The notes below the pieces were generated by a model. That model did no database searches and had not been told where the DNA came from. It saw nothing but the letters and a program-made list of their open reading frames with translations. The translations under genes and the position numbers were made by a program. Of a stretch of DNA of 32,446 bases, positions 4,264 through 26,764 are shown in pieces. Position 1 is the first letter of the stretch. Each line of letters opens with the position of its first letter. Origin of the DNA: Bacteroidota bacterium (GTDB lineage Bacteria > Bacteroidota > Bacteroidia > Bacteroidales > VadinHA17); assembly GCA_015222065.1 (NCBI GenBank), contig JADFUQ010000112.1:1-32446 (forward strand). The letters run 5' to 3'.

Positions 4264-4278
4264 TTAAACTTGTTTTTT

Positions 4279-4310
4279 AACCAGTAACCAGCAACCAGCA
4301 ACCAGTAACC
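4279..4310 (-). repeat. AACCAGY heptamer array (4 units)
   Basis: Four exact 7-bp units (AACCAGT, AACCAGC, AACCAGC, AACCAGT) plus a partial fifth lie between ftsZ and the CGGC-domain gene. On the minus strand they read RCTGGTT, the same word as the seven-unit array at 22883-22930 on the plus strand. Confidence 0.8.
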
Positions 4311-4375
4311 AAAAACTCAGGTTAATTATTATGTTTTTCTACGTTTTCTCCTTTTATAGTTTTCTTCTAAGTTCT

Positions 4376-5872
4376 TTAATCAACATTATCATGCAGGTAT
4401 GAATTATTATCTTTCAGTATTGATTTTTTCTTTTTATTATCCTCATTATCCTCCTCATCACCAAGAGAATATCTTGAAACTTTAGATTTAGATGAATAAA
4501 CATCATTCTTTATATTAATATTTCTTCTTATATAAGCAGGTTCATCTTCAAGTTCGTCAATATTATCTTTAACATCCTGATTTTTAAGACCTTTTTCTTT
4601 TATTATAGAATGTGTTTCTTTTATTTTCCTAATCCGTTCAGCATTTTTTTCAGAATTGATTGAATGGTTTTCCGGATTATGATCCGGTTTTTTATTCACA
4701 TCTGCCGGCTCTTCATCCTCCTCCTGCATATTAAAATTAATTGTACGTTGATTATTATTATATTCATCAACACGGTAAGTACCAAGATCTTTATCTTTAA
4801 TTTCAAAAATAGCATCCTGCCATTTTCTCTCATCCGATGAATTTTCAGACAACGTTACACTTTTCCTGGATCTGCTTTTTACATACAATTCAGGGATACT
4901 GTTAGCCTCAAAACCGGTAGCTATTATTGTAACAACTACTTTTTCTTCAAGTGATTCATCAACACCTGTTCCCCATATTAATTGCACATCCTCTGCTGCC
5001 AGTTCATTTAAATAATCGGTTATTTCGCCTACTTCATCCATACTTATTTCATCAGACCCGGAAGAAATGTTGAGTAAAATACTTTTTGCGCCGGTAATAT
5101 CATTCGAATTAAGCAAGGGTGATGTTACTGCCTGTTCAATTGCTTTCAATGCTCTTCCTTCACCTTCAGCTACACCAGTACCCATTATTGCCACACCCGA
5201 ATTAGTCATTACTGTCTGGACATCGGCAAAATCAACATTTATATAACCATGAACTGTAATTATTTCAGCTATTCCTTTAGCGGCAATAGTAAGCACATTA
5301 TCCGCGTGCCCGAATGCTTCAGACAACTTAAGATCTCCAAATATTTCCCTGAGTTTCTCATTATTAATTACCAGGAGTGAATCGACATATTGACTTAATT
5401 CATTAATACCGTCTATAGCCTGGTTAATCCTTTTCTGTCCTTCAAATTTAAAAGGGATTGTAACAATGGCAACTGTAAGAATACCTGCTTCGCGGGCTGC
5501 TTTCGCGATTACCGGTGCAGCTCCCGTTCCTGTTCCTCCGCCCATTCCGGCTGTCAGGAAAACCATTTTTGTATTGCTCGAAATTGCATCTGTTATATCA
5601 TCCATGTTTTCCAGAGCAGCCTGTTTACCTATTTCAGGAATATTTCCTGCTCCTCTTCCTTCAGTAAGAGATTCACCAATTTGTATTTTCACAGGAACCG
5701 GACTGGTATTCAATGCCTGTGCATCTGTATTGCACACCACAAAATTAACATCCTTTATGCCTTTTTGGTACATATAATTTACCGCGTTACTCCCACCTCC
5801 ACCAATACCCAGAACCTTTATAGTTGATGACTTTTCAACAGGCAGATCAAAGTTCATTATTTCGTCAGTCAT
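4376..5872 (-). CDS. ftsZ: Cell division tubulin homologue FtsZ
   Basis: FtsZ is the GTPase that polymerises into the cytokinetic ring. The GTP-binding tubulin signature GGGTGTGAAP is at residues 111-120, and the catalytic T7 loop NVDFAD is at 212-217. Residues 14 to ~325 form the globular core. A long, charged, probably disordered linker follows, and then PAYIRR, which resembles the conserved C-terminal peptide that binds FtsA. A further Lys/Asp-rich tail ends in LHDNVD. At 498 residues it is longer than the ~380 of proteobacterial FtsZ, as is common in Bacteroidota. It is the last gene of the dcw cluster, separated from ftsA by 298 bp that are mostly a repeat element. The start MTDEIMNFDLP at 5872 leaves a typical short N-terminal extension. 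Confidence 0.98.
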   Translation of the reverse strand: MTDEIMNFDLPVEKSSTIKVLGIGGGGSNAVNYMYQKGIKDVNFVVCNTDAQALNTSPVPVKIQIGESLTEGRGAGNIPEIGKQAALENMDDITDAISSNTKMVFLTAGMGGGTGTGAAPVIAKAAREAGILTVAIVTIPFKFEGQKRINQAIDGINELSQYVDSLLVINNEKLREIFGDLKLSEAFGHADNVLTIAAKGIAEIITVHGYINVDFADVQTVMTNSGVAIMGTGVAEGEGRALKAIEQAVTSPLLNSNDITGAKSILLNISSGSDEISMDEVGEITDYLNELAAEDVQLIWGTGVDESLEEKVVVTIIATGFEANSIPELYVKSRSRKSVTLSENSSDERKWQDAIFEIKDKDLGTYRVDEYNNNQRTINFNMQEEDEEPADVNKKPDHNPENHSINSEKNAERIRKIKETHSIIKEKGLKNQDVKDNIDELEDEPAYIRRNINIKNDVYSSKSKVSRYSLGDEEDNEDNKKKKSILKDNNSYLHDNVD

Positions 5873-5942: not shown

Positions 5943-6163
5943 TTAATTAGTGTCCGTCAATAAATCCATCATTTTATTTTATTAAGCACCAAATAACAAA
6001 AAACAAATAACAAATAAATCCCAAATACCAATTATCAAATGTCCGAAACTGTTTTGATTATTGAATTTTTGAATATTGTAATTTATTTGAAATTTGGTGC
6101 TTGTCATTTGTGATTTTTAATTCTTATTTAAACATTCGGACTTTGTAGACGGACTCTAATTAA
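5943..6163. repeat. MITE-like inverted-repeat element, copy 1 (ftsA-ftsZ gap)
   Basis: This ~221 bp element is bounded by TTAATTAGTGTCCGTC (5943-5958) and GACGGACTCTAATTAA (6148-6163), reverse complements with one mismatch. The left arm contains AAATAAC-type heptamers (5991-6018). The right arm contains heptamers ending in TTG (6083-6110), which are broadly complementary to the left arm, so the whole unit can fold as a long imperfect hairpin. Its right 82 bp (6081-6162) match 7690-7771 of copy 2 at 77 positions. It encodes no protein. It fills most of the gap 8 bp from the ftsA stop codon. Confidence 0.8.
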
Positions 6164-6170
6164 CTGTTTG

Positions 6171-7469
6171 CTAATCCATTTTCACGTCATTTTCAGCAAA
6201 CATTTCATTAAATGTTTTCTTCCACTTCTCAAAAAAGCGAGGTTTTTCTCCCTTAATATCATTTTCCTGTTCAAGGAACTCATGTGAGGTTTCTTTTTCA
6301 ACCTCATAAGTATTCAGGTATTCAAACCCCTTAAGCACGAGGCCAACGCTGGTAGCAAATTGTGGCTGGTTAATATCATCGTCTAATTCACCACCTATAA
6401 ATTCATTTGGTAAACCTACTCTCACATCCATTCCTGTTTTAAATTTCACAAGTTGTGAGAGATGTCTGAGTAAAGCACCTCCGCCTGTCAGTACAACACC
6501 GGCAGCAAGTTTCTCAAAATATCCACTGTTTTCTATTTCAAATATTACTGCATCAATTATTTCTTCCATCCTTGATTGGATAATATATGCCAGGCTTTTA
6601 AAAGAAATCTCCTTTGGTTCCCGTCCTGAAATACCCGGAATTGTTACCACCTTATCATCCGGAGAAATATCGCCGAGAGCCGAACCAAACTGGATTTTCA
6701 ACGATTCAGCCTGCCGCTGAAGGATAGCACATCCTTCTTTGATATCTTTTGTAACCACATTACCACCAAAAGGTATCACTGCAGTATGCCTGATAATATT
6801 ATCATAATAAACAGCAACATCAGTTGTTCCTCCACCAATATCCACTAAAACCACACCTGCTTCTTTTTCATCATCAGTAAGTACTGCTTCAGAGGAAGCT
6901 AGTGGTTCCAGGATAAGCTCTCTTATTTGCAGTCCTGTCCTGTTAATACATTTCTCAATATTTTTTGCCGAAGCTATCTGTCCAATTACGATATGGAAAT
7001 TAGCTTCCAGCCTTCTACCATTCATTCCTACAGGATTTTTCACGCCTGTTTCATTATCAACAATAAAATTCTGAGGCAGGACATGAATAATTTCCTCTCC
7101 AACATCAATAGGAATCTTATACATATCCTTTATCAGCCGGATAATATCTTCCCGCGTTATCTCTTCTTCCACGGAATTCCTGTTAATATATCCTCTGTTT
7201 CGCATGCTCCTGATATGTTGGCCGGCGATTCCGACAAAAACCTGGCTGAAATTTATTTCAGAACGTTTTTGAACATCTTCTACGGTTGAGCGGATAGCAT
7301 TCACGGTTTCTTCAATATTCAGGACAACTCCCCGTTTTATACCTTTTGAGGGAGCTTTGCTAAGTCCTAAAATCTCGATTTTACCATTTTCATTTTTCCT
7401 GCCGACTACAGAAACAATTTTTGTTGTTCCAATATCAACAGCCGCAACGATATGGTCTTTTTTGTTCAT
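6171..7469 (-). CDS. ftsA: Cell division protein FtsA
   Basis: FtsA is an actin-fold ATPase that tethers FtsZ filaments to the inner membrane and recruits later division proteins. The 432-residue sequence starts with the phosphate-1 motif VDIGTTKIVSVVG (about residues 11-23). It has the SHS2-type insertion (1C domain) near residues 85-160 and the phosphate-2 segment VLVDIGGGTTDVAVY near residue 207. The adenosine motif VVLTGGGALL is near residue 323. A basic amphipathic stretch near the C-terminus (RFFEKWKKTFNEMF) fits the membrane-targeting helix. Normal dcw spacing is broken on both sides, with 295 bp before it and 298 bp after it, each occupied by a copy of the same inverted-repeat element. 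This could uncouple ftsA and ftsZ expression from upstream genes. Confidence 0.97.
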   Translation of the reverse strand: MNKKDHIVAAVDIGTTKIVSVVGRKNENGKIEILGLSKAPSKGIKRGVVLNIEETVNAIRSTVEDVQKRSEINFSQVFVGIAGQHIRSMRNRGYINRNSVEEEITREDIIRLIKDMYKIPIDVGEEIIHVLPQNFIVDNETGVKNPVGMNGRRLEANFHIVIGQIASAKNIEKCINRTGLQIRELILEPLASSEAVLTDDEKEAGVVLVDIGGGTTDVAVYYDNIIRHTAVIPFGGNVVTKDIKEGCAILQRQAESLKIQFGSALGDISPDDKVVTIPGISGREPKEISFKSLAYIIQSRMEEIIDAVIFEIENSGYFEKLAAGVVLTGGGALLRHLSQLVKFKTGMDVRVGLPNEFIGGELDDDINQPQFATSVGLVLKGFEYLNTYEVEKETSHEFLEQENDIKGEKPRFFEKWKKTFNEMFAENDVKMD

Positions 7470-7540
7470 AGTATTAGATTTTTAATGTGGTTATGTAATA
7501 TTCTCTACTTTTTTACCAATAAATAATTTCCTTTTTAATA

Positions 7541-7769
7541 ATTAGAGTTTGTCCATATACTCTATATTTCGTTTATAAATAACAAATCTCAAAAAACAAA
7601 TAACAAATAATACCCAATGTTTGAAAAAACAAAATCCAAACAGCACATATACAAGAATTTGTTTGATTTTTTATTCATTAGAATTTGAGATTTATTTGAA
7701 ATTTGGTGCTTGTCATTTGTGATTTTTACTATTTATTTAAACTTTCGGACTTTATAGACGGACTCTAAT
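7541..7769. repeat. MITE-like inverted-repeat element, copy 2 (ftsQ-ftsA gap)
   Basis: This ~229 bp element has left end ATTAGAGTTTGTCCATA (7541-7557) and right end TATAGACGGACTCTAAT (7753-7769), inverted repeats with three transition mismatches. Internal heptamers AAATAAC, AAATCTC, AAAAAAC, AAATAAC and AAATAAT tile 7577-7611. The right arm shares 77 of 82 positions with copy 1. The right end runs into ftsQ: the last codons (AAT, TAG) lie inside the terminal repeat, so the element supplies the ftsQ stop codon. Confidence 0.8.
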
Positions 7770-8547
7770 TAGTACGTTTAGTACAAACTATTTGTCCGTC
7801 AAATTTCAGGTTAATTGCTTCATACTTGTTCCACCCCACCTTGTTCAGGCCTTTTTCAAACAATGCGTATAGTTTCCTGAACTTTTCCTGATAACCGTCA
7901 AAGCCTCCAAAAATAATTCTGTAGGCTCCAACACGTGGCACTAGTTCAAGCTCTCCTTTTTTGTTAATATATATCTGTTCAATCTGTGCCTTCCAGAAAT
8001 CATGCGAACTGATGAAACAGCCCAGTTTATGAACTTGTTTGATTATATTGTCAGAATCAATATTTTTTATCATAAGTTCCTGCATAATTTCCTCAGGTTC
8101 ATTAATATAACCACTGGCTATCAGCACCCTGGGAGTGAATTTTTCAGAAAAAGGGACAATTGCACCTTCAGCGTCAATATAATAACTCATTCCCTTATTA
8201 TTTATAATTCTTACAACCGGTACTCTTTGAATTGCCTCAATATGCAACTTTCCCCCAATTGTTTTATATGCTTCTACTTTTTTCAGTGCCGGATGTAAAG
8301 CAAGCCGAATTTCAATTTCGCGGGTATCAAGAGTTCCAATTGGATAACCAAGTAACTGATTATCAGGTTTATTAATAATATTGAGTATATCATCTTGTGT
8401 AACAAACCGGCTGGTAAGCGAATCAGGTAAACTGATATCAATCGAATTACATGGAGTTTTTCCCGACCGATCAACAACAAAACCGGGAACCACAACTATA
8501 TAAGCTATGATAATTACCCAAACAAATATTTTCAGAATCCGCTTCAT
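7765..8547 (-). CDS. ftsQ: Cell division protein FtsQ/DivIB
   Basis: FtsQ is a bitopic inner-membrane division protein linking early (FtsA/Z) and late (FtsL, FtsW, FtsI) divisome components. After a short basic cytoplasmic start, residues 4-24 form one membrane segment (ILKIFVWVIIIAYIVVVPGFV). A periplasmic region follows with a POTRA-like part (SRFVTQDDILNII, with LDTREIEIRLALHPALKKVEAY) and the FtsQ/DivIB beta domain (KGMSYYIDAEGAIVPFS). I take the ATG at 8547 (260 residues). A TTG 21 nt further upstream would add seven residues and overlap murC by 14 nt. The last three residues (RTN) and the stop codon lie at or in the terminal repeat of an inserted element, so the C-terminus may have been changed slightly by insertion. 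Confidence 0.92.
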   Translation of the reverse strand: MKRILKIFVWVIIIAYIVVVPGFVVDRSGKTPCNSIDISLPDSLTSRFVTQDDILNIINKPDNQLLGYPIGTLDTREIEIRLALHPALKKVEAYKTIGGKLHIEAIQRVPVVRIINNKGMSYYIDAEGAIVPFSEKFTPRVLIASGYINEPEEIMQELMIKNIDSDNIIKQVHKLGCFISSHDFWKAQIEQIYINKKGELELVPRVGAYRIIFGGFDGYQEKFRKLYALFEKGLNKVGWNKYEAINLKFDGQIVCTKRTN

Positions 8548-8554
8548 TTTTTCT

Positions 8555-9937
8555 TTATCTCTTCTCAAGCATTTTTTTCACCGGTTCAACAAATTCACCT
8601 ATATCTCCTGCTCCAAGTGTTAACAATACATCCAAATCTTTATTTCCCAACAGATCAACCAGGTTTTCCTTTTTTGCCAATTGTTTATTTTCCATTTTCA
8701 TTTTCTGCAATATCATCTCAGAAGTAACACCGGGGACCGGTTTTTCCCGGGCAGGATAGATATCCAAAAGTATAAGCTCATCCAATTCATCAAGACTACC
8801 GGCAAATTCATTGGCGAAATTTTGTGTACGGGAATAAAGGTGTGGCTGAAATACCCCTGTTATTGATTTGCCGGGAAACATCTCCCTTACAGATGCGATG
8901 CATGCTTTCAATTCTTCAGGATGGTGTGCATAATCGTCAATATAAATCAGCTTATCAGATTTGAATACAATTTCAAACCTGCGTTTGACACCGGAAAAAT
9001 ATAACAATGCTTTTTTAATTGTCTCCTGCTTTACTCCAAGCAATGTAAGAACTGCAACCGCGGCAACTGCATTTTCTACATTCATCCTGCCGGGATAACC
9101 AAAGTGAATATCTTTGATAATTCCATCAGGTGTATGAATATTAAACAGATATAAACCCTCATTGATAGTTACATCTGAACAATAAAAGTCAGCATTTGTT
9201 TTAATTCCATATGTATATATTGATATATCATGCAGGTTTTCAGATTCAAGCGATAGCCCTTTCTTTATCAGTAATATACCTCCCGGTTTTATTTGTCCGA
9301 TAAATTTCATAAAAGCTTTTTCCATTTCATCTTTCCCCCCGTAAACATCCAGGTGATCAGCATCAATAGCTGTCACTACTGCCAACCATGGATGCAATTG
9401 CAGGAATGACCTGTCATATTCATCAGCTTCAAGCACGACCAAATCGCTTTTACCCAGAAGAAGATTTGTATTATAGTTTTTTGAAATTCCTCCAAGGAAA
9501 GCGGAACAATCAAGCTCCGACTGTTTTAATAAATAAGCAATAATAGTTGAAACTGTAGTTTTCCCGTGAGTGCCCGCAACAGCGATACATTTTGTTTTTC
9601 GGGTTATCCATCCAAGTACTTCAGCCCTTTTCACCACCAGGAAATCCTTGTTTCTGAAAAATCTTAGTTCTGTATGTGCCTCAGGAACAGCAGGCGTGAA
9701 TACAACCAGAACCTCCTCCTTTTTATTAATGTCCCTGTATATTTCAGGTATTTTATTGATATTATCAATATAATGAATTAAACTCCCTTCTGCTGACAAT
9801 TGTAAGGTGAGTTTCGATTCAACACGATCATACCCGGCAACTTCAAAACCACCGGCCATAAAATACCTGGCAAGGGCACTCATCCCGATACCTCCGATAC
9901 CGATAAAATAAACCCTTTGTATTTTGTTCAGATCCAT
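8555..9937 (-). CDS. murC: UDP-N-acetylmuramate--L-alanine ligase MurC
   Basis: MurC is the ATP-dependent cytoplasmic ligase adding L-alanine to UDP-MurNAc, the first step of stem-peptide synthesis. The 460-residue protein starts with a Rossmann segment FIGIGGIGMSALA (residues 11-23), which binds the UDP-sugar. The ATP P-loop is AGTHGKTTVST (121-131). The middle domain carries LEADEYDRSFL, and the C-terminal domain contains YIDDYAHHPEE, a MurC hallmark. The length is normal. It begins 1 nt after murG and ends 7 nt before the chosen ftsQ start, consistent with translational coupling in the dcw operon. Confidence 0.98.
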   Translation of the reverse strand: MDLNKIQRVYFIGIGGIGMSALARYFMAGGFEVAGYDRVESKLTLQLSAEGSLIHYIDNINKIPEIYRDINKKEEVLVVFTPAVPEAHTELRFFRNKDFLVVKRAEVLGWITRKTKCIAVAGTHGKTTVSTIIAYLLKQSELDCSAFLGGISKNYNTNLLLGKSDLVVLEADEYDRSFLQLHPWLAVVTAIDADHLDVYGGKDEMEKAFMKFIGQIKPGGILLIKKGLSLESENLHDISIYTYGIKTNADFYCSDVTINEGLYLFNIHTPDGIIKDIHFGYPGRMNVENAVAAVAVLTLLGVKQETIKKALLYFSGVKRRFEIVFKSDKLIYIDDYAHHPEELKACIASVREMFPGKSITGVFQPHLYSRTQNFANEFAGSLDELDELILLDIYPAREKPVPGVTSEMILQKMKMENKQLAKKENLVDLLGNKDLDVLLTLGAGDIGEFVEPVKKMLEKR

Positions 9938-21486: not shown

Positions 21487-21599
21487 TTATACTGGGCTTA
21501 CACGAAGCTTGTTTTAGTTAAGTTGTTAAATGGTTGAATGCCTCTTCACACTGCAACATTGCATCACCGCAACACTACATCACAATTTTTTTTTCTGCT

Positions 21600-21855
21600 A
21601 TTCCATCTTTCCACTATTCCATTATTCCACTATTCCATCTTTCCATTATTCCAACATTCCATTATTCCAACATTCCATTCTTCCATCTTTCCACTATTCC
21701 ATCTTTCCATTATTCCAACATTCCATTCTTCCATCTTTCCATCTTTCCACTATTCCATTATTCCACTATTCCACTATTCCATTATTCCACTATTCCATTA
21801 TTCCATTCTTCCATCTTTCCACTATTCCATCATTCCATCTTTCCACTATTCCAAA
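21600..21855 (+). repeat. Degenerate octamer array, 32 units of HTTCCAHY
   Basis: The block divides into 32 consecutive 8-bp units, for example ATTCCATC, TTTCCACT, ATTCCATT and ATTCCAAC, with no insertion or deletion across 256 bp. TTCCA is nearly invariant. Variation is confined to the first base and the last two bases (the final unit ends AA). Neighbouring units are not independent: units ending ACT are always followed by one starting with A, and units ending ATC are nearly always followed by one starting with T. No spacers are present, so it is not a CRISPR. Confidence 0.92.
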
Positions 21856-22877: not shown

Positions 22878-22882
22878 CACCT

Positions 22883-22930
22883 ACTGGTTGCTGGTTGCTG
22901 GTTACTGGTTACTGGTTACTGGTTACTGGT
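22883..22930 (+). repeat. RCTGGTT heptamer array (7 units)
   Basis: ACTGGTT, GCTGGTT, GCTGGTT, then four ACTGGTT units (the last truncated by one base) lie in exact register, starting 5 bp after the glsB stop codon. It is the reverse complement of the AACCAGY array at 4279-4310. Confidence 0.88.
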
Positions 22931-22935
22931 CTGAC

Positions 22936-23054
22936 CTTGAACTTTGAACCTTGAACTCTTTTCTTCTCTCATCTCTCATCTCTCATCTCTTTCTTCCTCT
23001 TCCTACTCAACTTACTCAACTACTCAAACATTCTTCAAACCTCAAACCTCAAAC
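22936..23054 (+). repeat. Serial heptamer mini-arrays
   Basis: Three further 7-bp words follow each other: YTTGAAC x3 at 22936-22956, CTCTCAT x3 at 22966-22986 and YTCAAAC x3 at 23034-23054. Less regular ACTCAA words occur between the last two. Each array keeps exact 7-bp phase, and most tolerate only a purine or pyrimidine transition at one position. Confidence 0.8.
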
Positions 23055-25257: not shown

Positions 25258-26298
25258 ATGAAAAATATAATTAAAACTCTTTCTGCAATAATATTTATCG
25301 CATTGATTTTTAATGCTTGTAAAGAGCAAGTTGAAGAAGAAAAAATCGCGGAAAAAATAAAAGTAAGAACAACAAAGGTTATTGAAAAAGAAATGTCGAT
25401 ACCTGTTCATTGCAGCGGTAAATTATCTTCAAAAACCGAATCGAAATTAAGTTTTAAAACCGGTGGAATTATCAGCAGCATATTTGTTGATGAAGGTCAA
25501 AAAGTGAAAAAAGGACAAGTTTTGGCAAAGCTTAATCTTTCTGAAATTCAGCCACAGGTAAATCAGGCAAGACTTGGTTTGGATAAAGCCGAACGGGATT
25601 TCAGGAGGGCTAATAATTTGTATAAGGACAGTGTTGCTACTCTTGAGCAACTGCAAAATGTTACAACTGCTCTAAATATTGCAAAATCAAATGTGGAAAT
25701 AGCCGAATTTAATCTGCAATACTCAACAATCAAAGCCCCGTCAAACGGTAAAATTTTAAAACGTATTGCCGAAGAAAACGAAATCGTCGGACCCGGCAAC
25801 CCTGTGTTTTTGTTTGGTTCTACTGATAATGACTGGATTGCCAGAGTGAATATTACTGATAAGGATATTTTTTCGCTCCAACTTAATGACAAGGCAGAAA
25901 TACAATTTGATGCTTATCCCGATAAAACTTTCACGGCAATTGTTACCGTAATTGGAAACTTAGCCGACCCATATACAGGAACCTACGAAGTTGAACTTAC
26001 GCTAAAACAAACAGATGCAAAATTTGCTTCAGGATTAATTGCAAGTGTGGATATTTATCCTTCAAAAAAAGAAATATTTAAAATCATTTCTGTTAATGCT
26101 CTTATAGAAGGCAATGAAACGGAAGGTTATATATATCAGGTTATTAATAAAAGCAAGGTTAAAAAGTTAAGAATTAAAATTCACAAGATCTCTGATAACG
26201 ATTTATTTATTAAATCAGGCGTAGAAACCGGAGCCGAGATAATCACCGAAGGAGTGAGTTATGTTAATGGAACGTCTGAAGTTAAAGTAATAAAATAG
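25258..26298 (+). CDS. RND efflux periplasmic adaptor (membrane fusion protein), lipoprotein
   Basis: This 346-residue adaptor joins the inner-membrane RND pump to the TolC channel. The N-terminus has a lipoprotein signal with lipobox FNAC, so Cys21 is probably lipidated. Domain order is typical of the HlyD/AcrA family: first half of the lipoyl domain (GGIISSIFVDEGQKVKKGQVLAKL), an alpha-helical hairpin (ALNIAKSNVEIAEFNLQYS), second lipoyl half (IKAPSNGKILKRIAEENEIV), beta-barrel and membrane-proximal domain. The TAG stop codon runs straight into a GCTKTTR heptamer array. The pump gene does not follow directly: a four-helix-bundle gene lies between. Confidence 0.95.
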   Translation: MKNIIKTLSAIIFIALIFNACKEQVEEEKIAEKIKVRTTKVIEKEMSIPVHCSGKLSSKTESKLSFKTGGIISSIFVDEGQKVKKGQVLAKLNLSEIQPQVNQARLGLDKAERDFRRANNLYKDSVATLEQLQNVTTALNIAKSNVEIAEFNLQYSTIKAPSNGKILKRIAEENEIVGPGNPVFLFGSTDNDWIARVNITDKDIFSLQLNDKAEIQFDAYPDKTFTAIVTVIGNLADPYTGTYEVELTLKQTDAKFASGLIASVDIYPSKKEIFKIISVNALIEGNETEGYIYQVINKSKVKKLRIKIHKISDNDLFIKSGVETGAEIITEGVSYVNGTSEVKVIK

Positions 26299-26330
26299 CT
26301 TTTAGCTGTTGGCTGTTAGCTTTTAGCTTT
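26298..26330 (+). repeat. GCTKTTR heptamer array, left flank of the four-helix gene
   Basis: GCTTTTA, GCTGTTG, GCTGTTA, GCTTTTA and a partial GCTTT are in exact 7-bp register. The first base is the last base of the adaptor gene's TAG stop codon. A matching array in inverted orientation lies at 26730-26764, on the other side of the four-helix gene. Confidence 0.85.
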
Positions 26331-26379
26331 ACTATCATAAATTAATGCTTTATCTATTAAAACCTTTAAAAAATAAATT

Positions 26380-26739
26380 ATGAAAAATTTTAGAAAATTA
26401 ATCATTTGGCAAAAAGGAATTGATTTGGTAATTGACATTTATAAGTTCTCAAATGATTTGCCATCAGATGAAAAATATGGTTTAATAAGTCAAATACGAC
26501 GAGCATCAGTATCAATTCCTTCAAATATTGCCGAAGGTTCTTCGAGGTATAGTGAAAAAGATTTTAAACGTTTTCTTGAAATTGCTATAGGTTCAGCTTT
26601 TGAGTTAGAAACTCAATTACTAATAATCCAAAAGTTATGTTTAATTGACAAAAGCAAGTGTGATATACTTATCCAGTCGTTACAAGAAGAACAAAAAATG
26701 ATCAATAGTTTGATTACTAAAATTAAAACCAACAGCTAA
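26380..26739 (+). CDS. Four-helix bundle protein (23S rRNA intervening-sequence protein family)
   Basis: This 119-residue cytoplasmic protein is of the S23/IVP family. Hallmarks are the opening FRKLIIWQKGIDLVIDIY, the segment GLISQIRRASVSIPSNIAEGSSR and DFKRFLEIAIGSAFELETQL. Members were first found as ORFs in intervening sequences of 23S rRNA genes, but they are widespread as free-standing genes. Their function is unknown, though nucleic-acid binding has been proposed and they form pentamers or other ring-like oligomers. Here it interrupts the adaptor-pump pair, and its last codons (ACC AAC AGC TAA) run into the right heptamer array. The oppositely oriented word arrays on both sides make it look like an inserted cassette. 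Confidence 0.93.
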   Translation: MKNFRKLIIWQKGIDLVIDIYKFSNDLPSDEKYGLISQIRRASVSIPSNIAEGSSRYSEKDFKRFLEIAIGSAFELETQLLIIQKLCLIDKSKCDILIQSLQEEQKMINSLITKIKTNS

Positions 26740-26764
26740 CAGCTAATAACTAACAGCTAATAAA
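26730..26764 (-). repeat. Inverted GCTGTTA heptamer array, right flank of the four-helix gene
   Basis: CAACAGC, TAACAGC, TAATAAC, TAACAGC and TAATAAA are five exact heptamers, the reverse complement of the left-flank family. The array contains the stop codon of the four-helix gene and ends exactly one base before the ATG of the RND pump, so it takes the place of any normal leader. Confidence 0.85.

Follow-up and report, generated by a model that had tools for sequence, protein, structure and literature searches.

Miniature inverted-repeat transposable elements beside ftsA and ftsZ in a Bacteroidales division gene cluster, and their likely ISNCY_1-type parent

Two related elements in a division gene cluster

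In the division gene cluster of a Bacteroidota bacterium of the VadinHA17 group, the gaps on either side of ftsA each hold a non-coding, hairpin-forming sequence. What these two sequences are, how they came to lie among essential genes, and whether they influence the expression of ftsA and ftsZ are the questions considered here. An earlier note on this DNA read them as related elements resembling miniature inverted-repeat transposable elements (MITEs), one in each junction, and we find both at nearly the positions it gave. The analysis makes it very probable that the two, here termed E1 and E2, are non-autonomous MITEs belonging to one family of this Bacteroidales genus, most likely moved in trans by an ISNCY_1-type transposase and tolerated as passengers.

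The window (the whole 32,446-nucleotide stretch that was analysed) is contig C410 of a fragmented genome bin, G000, comprising 3.9 Mb in 612 contigs. On its minus strand the genes run murD, ftsW, murG, murC, a gene in the ftsQ position, ftsA and ftsZ. FtsZ, FtsA, MurC, MurG, FtsW and MurD are supported by profiles, whereas the gene in the ftsQ position (7765–8568, minus strand) has no profile match and takes its name only from its place between murC and ftsA. Of the ftsQ-ftsA-ftsZ segment named earlier, ftsA (6171–7469, minus strand, TIGR01174) and ftsZ (4376–5872, minus strand, TIGR00065) are thus the members identified by profile. E1 (5950–6156) lies in the 298-bp gap between ftsA and ftsZ, and E2 (7545–7765) in the 295-bp gap between the ftsQ-position gene and ftsA, so that ftsZ is downstream of E1, ftsA is between the two and the ftsQ-position gene is upstream of E2. 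At 207 and 221 bp without their duplications, they are slightly shorter than the 220–230 bp first estimated. Read from the flanks, each element sits between perfect 6-bp TAATTA duplications, at 5944–5949 and 6157–6162 for E1 and at 7539–7544 and 7766–7771 for E2. Both have inserted into gaps between division genes without breaking any gene.

Terminal inverted repeats of 15–18 bp, G(A/T)GTCYRTCYATAAAGTC, occur at both ends of the elements; E1 begins with GTGTCCGTCAATAAATCC and its last bases, as reverse complement, read GAGTCCGTCTACAAAGTCC. The ends had previously been described as TAATTAG-A/T-GTCCGTC; their similarity on the two elements stands, while TAATTA is the target duplication. The cores are AT-rich, fold back on themselves and are made of heptamer repeats, as the earlier description of heptamer-filled arms implied: among lags 2–15, lag 7 gives the strongest autocorrelation in all four arms, and TRF reports period-7 arrays in both elements. 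The right arms of E1 and E2 are alike, with 85% identity over 110 nt; the ungapped alignment gives 74/83 identical positions where 77/82 had been stated. The E2 core represents a different subtype from that of E1, and this subtype is likewise dispersed in the genus. Neither element contains an ORF of at least 90 aa, in keeping with the lack of coding capacity already proposed for them.

Heptamer arrays also occur elsewhere in the window, in intergenic gaps at 4278–4311, 22882–22930, 22965–22990, 23035–23054, 26296–26330 and 26731–26760, with units such as TAACCAG, TACTGGT, TCTCTCA, TCAAACC, TAGCTTT and AACAGCT. Of the 19 tandem arrays in the window, 8 have a period of 7, more than any other period; two of these 8 belong to E1 and E2. 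In this small sample the density of period-7 arrays is about 25 per 100 kb in the window versus 7 and 5 in two congeners and 0–3 in three other genera. An inverted pair of heptamer arrays of the TAGCTGT type (26291–26345 and 26710–26760) surrounds a 119-aa ORF at 26380–26739. A tandem array of 8- and 16-bp units (CTATTCCA / TATTCCATCTTTCCAT) at 21549–21853, with 32 copies of the 8-mer, occupies the gap upstream of 21918.

Dispersed copies, target and family

A BLAST search with E1 against its own genome gives about 60 matches, and a 20-base terminal repeat pattern, TAGNGTCYRTCYATAAAGTC, occurs at 73 sites there, versus none for the reversed control. The genome-wide search for copies that the earlier note proposed thus yielded many. 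Each of the seven species in the genus has the pattern. In the wider family it is patchy, with 23 of the 117 genomes and 6 of the 15 genera positive. The ends were placed from 39 complete copies of 142–519 bp as G(A/T)GTC...GAC(A/T)C, and the target is the palindrome TAWWTA, whose 6 bp are duplicated on insertion. Target-site duplications, also proposed as a check, are perfect for E1 and E2, and identical left and right 6-mers flank 17 of the 39 complete elements, versus 5.3 expected by random re-pairing of flanks; duplication lengths other than 6 bp gave no signal in this set. The motif GTCCGTC alone is not above chance within the window, which indicates that the whole terminal repeat is the meaningful unit. 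The spaced pattern GTCCGTC N{130,160} GACGGAC had no match in the genome, its spacing being too short for the family and the core of the repeat being variable.

The same terminal repeats also bound a second, unrelated hairpin core of about 150 bp (AACAAGGAACACCGATTAACGATT...; AACAAGGAACACCGATTAACGATTTGCGAAGTG... AATCGTTAATCCTTGTTCG), seen in the copies at L156 1369–1518, L157 1369–1518, L158 413–563 and L020 539–689. Since this second core bears the same ends, the mobile unit is defined by its ends rather than by its core. Some MITEs contain nested, GC-richer repeats (CCCCCGTACGGTCATGCTTCCCTACGGGGCAGG and others; L152 1503–2021, L016 1332–1618 and L164 1377–1518), which look as if another small repeat family had inserted into them. 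Most classified elements (26 of 34) lie in gaps between tandem genes, a preference that is not significant relative to the tandem share of gap length (63%, P = 0.08).

Taken together, the elements are short (below about 600 bp) and non-coding, carry terminal inverted repeats and target duplications, occur as dispersed copies opposite empty sites in relatives, and have ends in common with an autonomous element. These are the features by which MITEs are recognised, and the initial reading of E1 and E2 as MITE-like is borne out by copies, duplications, empty sites and a likely parent insertion sequence (IS).

A likely parent insertion sequence

We searched for a parent among transposases of the genus with a DDE_Tnp_1 domain (PF01609), and then for a matching terminal repeat beside the gene. 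Two loci in the genus have such a repeat adjoining a transposase, L187 (in G005) and L189 (in G001); both are cut by a contig end and retain one matching end each. Their transposases are 70% identical and score 369.7 and 379.8 bits, above the curated cut-off of 325 for ISNCY_1 (NCBIfam NF033593). A complete IS is found in G008, a member of another genus (L209, 1409–3047). It is 1,639 bp long, has a single transposase ORF of 444 aa, ends in GAGTCTGTCTATAAACTA and GTGTCTGTCTATAAAGTC, and is flanked on both sides by the duplication TATTTA. The G000 bin itself yielded no ISNCY_1-type transposase; the bin is fragmented, so a repeated IS could be absent from it. A weak DDE hit in that bin (PF01609, contig C508) was considered as a parent and set aside, as terminal repeats are absent.

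Unlike ISNCY_1 insertion sequences, E1 and E2 encode no transposase, and what the MITEs have in common with the presumed parent is confined to terminal repeats and target, so that an origin of the MITEs by internal deletion of such an IS would be hypothetical. Because both ends and target are shared, the ISNCY_1-type IS is a likely source of the transposition machinery and, judged by sequence, the likely autonomous parent of the MITE family. We found no earlier report of a MITE-ISNCY parent pair in Bacteroidales in the open literature searched.

Element junctions and stop codons

The least expected feature of the family is that the first base of an element can complete the stop codon of the preceding gene. 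The target TAWWTA is followed by the element's first base, G, and each junction therefore reads TAWWTAG, which spells TAG. At E2 the ftsQ-position gene has this TAG as its stop codon (7765–7767, minus strand), formed on the gene strand by TA from the duplication and G from the first base of E2. Congeners with an empty E2 site have the same stop TAG, within TTATTAG.

The pattern extends beyond this locus. In the genus, 168 element ends have enough flank to be read, based on ORF calls rather than curated genes; 19 complete a TAG that terminates, in frame, an ORF at least 100 codons long. At 7 more a stop codon lies where the duplication begins, and at only 2 does an ORF of that minimum length continue into the element. 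In a distant genus (G019 and G028), 3 of 56 ends complete a stop, 2 have one at the duplication start and 1 is read into. Of the initial 39 elements, 11 lie at a stop codon in the TAG register; sampled DNA of the genus contains 199 TAWWTA targets that are not in gene interiors, and 9 of these lie at a stop in the same register. At two sites, element-free orthologues mostly end in TAA and those with the element in TAG at the same codon, the protein being unchanged or nearly so, and at a third site the final residues are changed and the stop is supplied by the element.

Stop-codon completion is thus an observed pattern with two possible causes. The excess at stop codons could stem from selection against damaging insertions after insertion at random. 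More tentatively, and with the balance of probability somewhat against it, the parent transposase and its MITEs may have adapted to land on stop codons, the 3' ends of genes serving as safe entry sites into tight operons, including the division cluster, at little damage. The open literature, as far as it was searched, gave no report of stop-codon completion or targeting by such an element; this is weak evidence that none exists.

Empty sites and the history of the two insertions

The earlier note also called for a search for empty sites. Both gaps are empty in four of the six congeners (G005, G002, G004 and G001), in which the ftsQ-ftsA gap measures 35–102 bp and the ftsA-ftsZ gap 41–86 bp. 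The latter is also empty in G003 and G006, so that it is 41–86 bp in all six congeners versus 298 bp in G000. E1 is accordingly present in one species of seven, G000, whereas the E2 site is occupied in three of seven (G000, G003 and G006) by the same core subtype, the G003 copy having decayed ends. Further empty orthologous targets were found in relatives at two other sites. A long ftsA-ftsZ gap (387 bp) in the distant relative G028 (L131) holds unrelated sequence with GTTATAA heptamers, which suggests that insertions in this gap are tolerated in further lineages.

The element between the ftsQ-position gene and ftsA may have entered this genus once or more than once. If a single ancestral insertion had later been excised cleanly in several species, through slippage from one duplication to the other, the copies in G000, G003 and G006 would be expected to share site, orientation and core subtype, as they do, and the two intact copies are mutual best matches in a global alignment (95% identity). 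A three-gene tree, however, nests G000 among species whose E2 site is empty and would require at least three clean losses. The G000 and G006 copies also diverge by only 5%, much less than the flanking genes do (13.5% divergence, 86.5% identity), and an E2-like copy elsewhere in G006 (contig C60) is nearly as close (93.5% vs 94.4% by BLAST). In a tree, orthology of the three copies has a support of 46%. We therefore regard a single ancestral insertion as somewhat doubtful, and the evidence favours young copies hitting the same target more than once. A search around E2 for a tract of recombination between G000 and G006 showed none; the occupation of this site in three species may reflect insertion on several occasions, transfer, or an old insertion kept under constraint.

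Regulators or passengers

The earlier note had suggested that the elements insulate, terminate or independently regulate ftsA and ftsZ. This part of its reading is unsupported: promoter and terminator signals are at chance level, and four of six congeners do without both elements. The promoter scan, which lacks Bacteroidetes-type promoters, gave 8 promoter-like sites versus 7.9 expected from shuffled sequence, and the terminator scan found none after E1 or E2, its single terminator-like site lying inside ftsA on the other strand. The transcripts of E1 and E2 have predicted folds of greater stability than those of shuffled sequences (z -3.3 and -4.9), as expected from the complementarity of the arms. 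An effect on mRNA stability through a long, weak hairpin in the transcript is possible as far as such folding models go.

Two regulatory accounts can be weighed against these observations. One holds that the elements are ordinary conserved leader or regulatory sequences of the two genes and not mobile DNA; in its favour is their place in the gaps immediately preceding ftsA and ftsZ. Dispersed copies and duplications argue against this, no Rfam family matches the window, and empty sites in close relatives contradict it. The earlier note had named a lack of further copies, together with conservation of both gaps in all relatives as ordinary leader sequence, among the outcomes that would overturn its reading; most congeners in fact lack both elements, and the leader account can be set aside with near certainty. 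The other suggestion is that the MITEs have been co-opted, their transcribed hairpins setting how stable or how abundant the division mRNAs are relative to one another. The predicted folding is in line with it, as is the behaviour of ERIC and Correia elements, which alter the stability of mRNAs or undergo RNase III cleavage (PMC2229807), and so is an ftsQ-ftsA element that occupies three of seven species with G000 and G006 copies closer to each other than their flanking genes are. Such a role nonetheless fits poorly with an E1 confined to one species and an E2 to three, with a G003 copy that has lost its ends and with scans at chance level. Since closely related copies also occur at unrelated sites, the conservation between G000 and G006 needs no function, and co-option appears improbable. 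E1 and E2 are probably tolerated passengers, which is the simplest account.

Relation to known elements

MITEs are already known in Bacteroidota; what distinguishes the present family is its presumed ISNCY_1-type parent, its heptamer arms and its stop-completing junction. MITECca01 of Cardinium (Bacteroidota) is about 240 bp long, present in high copy, mostly intergenic and shares its ends with a resident IS (PMC9769881). The E1/E2 family resembles it in short size, high copy number, mostly intergenic location and IS-shared ends, whereas the parent of MITECca01 belongs to the IS982 family and that presumed here is of ISNCY_1 type with a TAWWTA duplication. BrickBuilt of Porphyromonas gingivalis (Bacteroidales) has an interior of short tandem repeats and is always intergenic, and has 23-bp minisatellite units; its abstract reports promoter elements with bidirectional transcription (PMC4596501). 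This contrasts with the heptamers in two complementary arms and the chance-level promoter scan found here. ERIC and Correia (NEMIS) elements are likewise hairpin MITEs in transcribed intergenic gaps, from other hosts, and it is there that effects on mRNA have been studied, which makes them a possible model for such effects. For ERIC, Correia and BrickBuilt alike, the check on family membership was a search of Rfam, which gave no family matching the window. Chunjie of Geobacter uraniireducens (cited in PMC10969869), at 178–235 bp, is similar in size and from another host. Heptamer repeats are known from Beggiatoaceae, Cyanobacteria and a few Bacteroidetes (PMC4679880), and no matching report of heptamer-containing MITEs in Bacteroidetes was found in the open literature searched.

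Mechanism and significance

The direct observations are the dispersed copies, their target duplications, the empty sites, the terminal repeats of the parent and the junctions at stop codons. From these we infer a mechanism in which the DDE transposase of an ISNCY_1-type IS with the same terminal repeats would move the MITEs in trans. Insertion into the palindrome TAWWTA duplicates six bases, and with the terminal G creates a TAWWTAG junction, so that an insertion at the end of a gene keeps or supplies a TAG stop. Such a TAG-preserving junction helps explain how the family may have entered tight operons, among them the division cluster, and left them undamaged. Next to ftsA and ftsZ, the two insertions would be co-transcribed as weak hairpins, as passengers rather than regulators.

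The locus shows how a compact operon of essential genes can take up miniature elements and keep its genes intact, and it offers a concrete, testable rule, namely that the target TAWWTA and a terminal G together make TAG. It also links a MITE family to a likely ISNCY_1-type parent in Bacteroidales. Finally, the clean presence and absence of elements around ftsA and ftsZ among close species constitutes a natural experiment on gene spacing.
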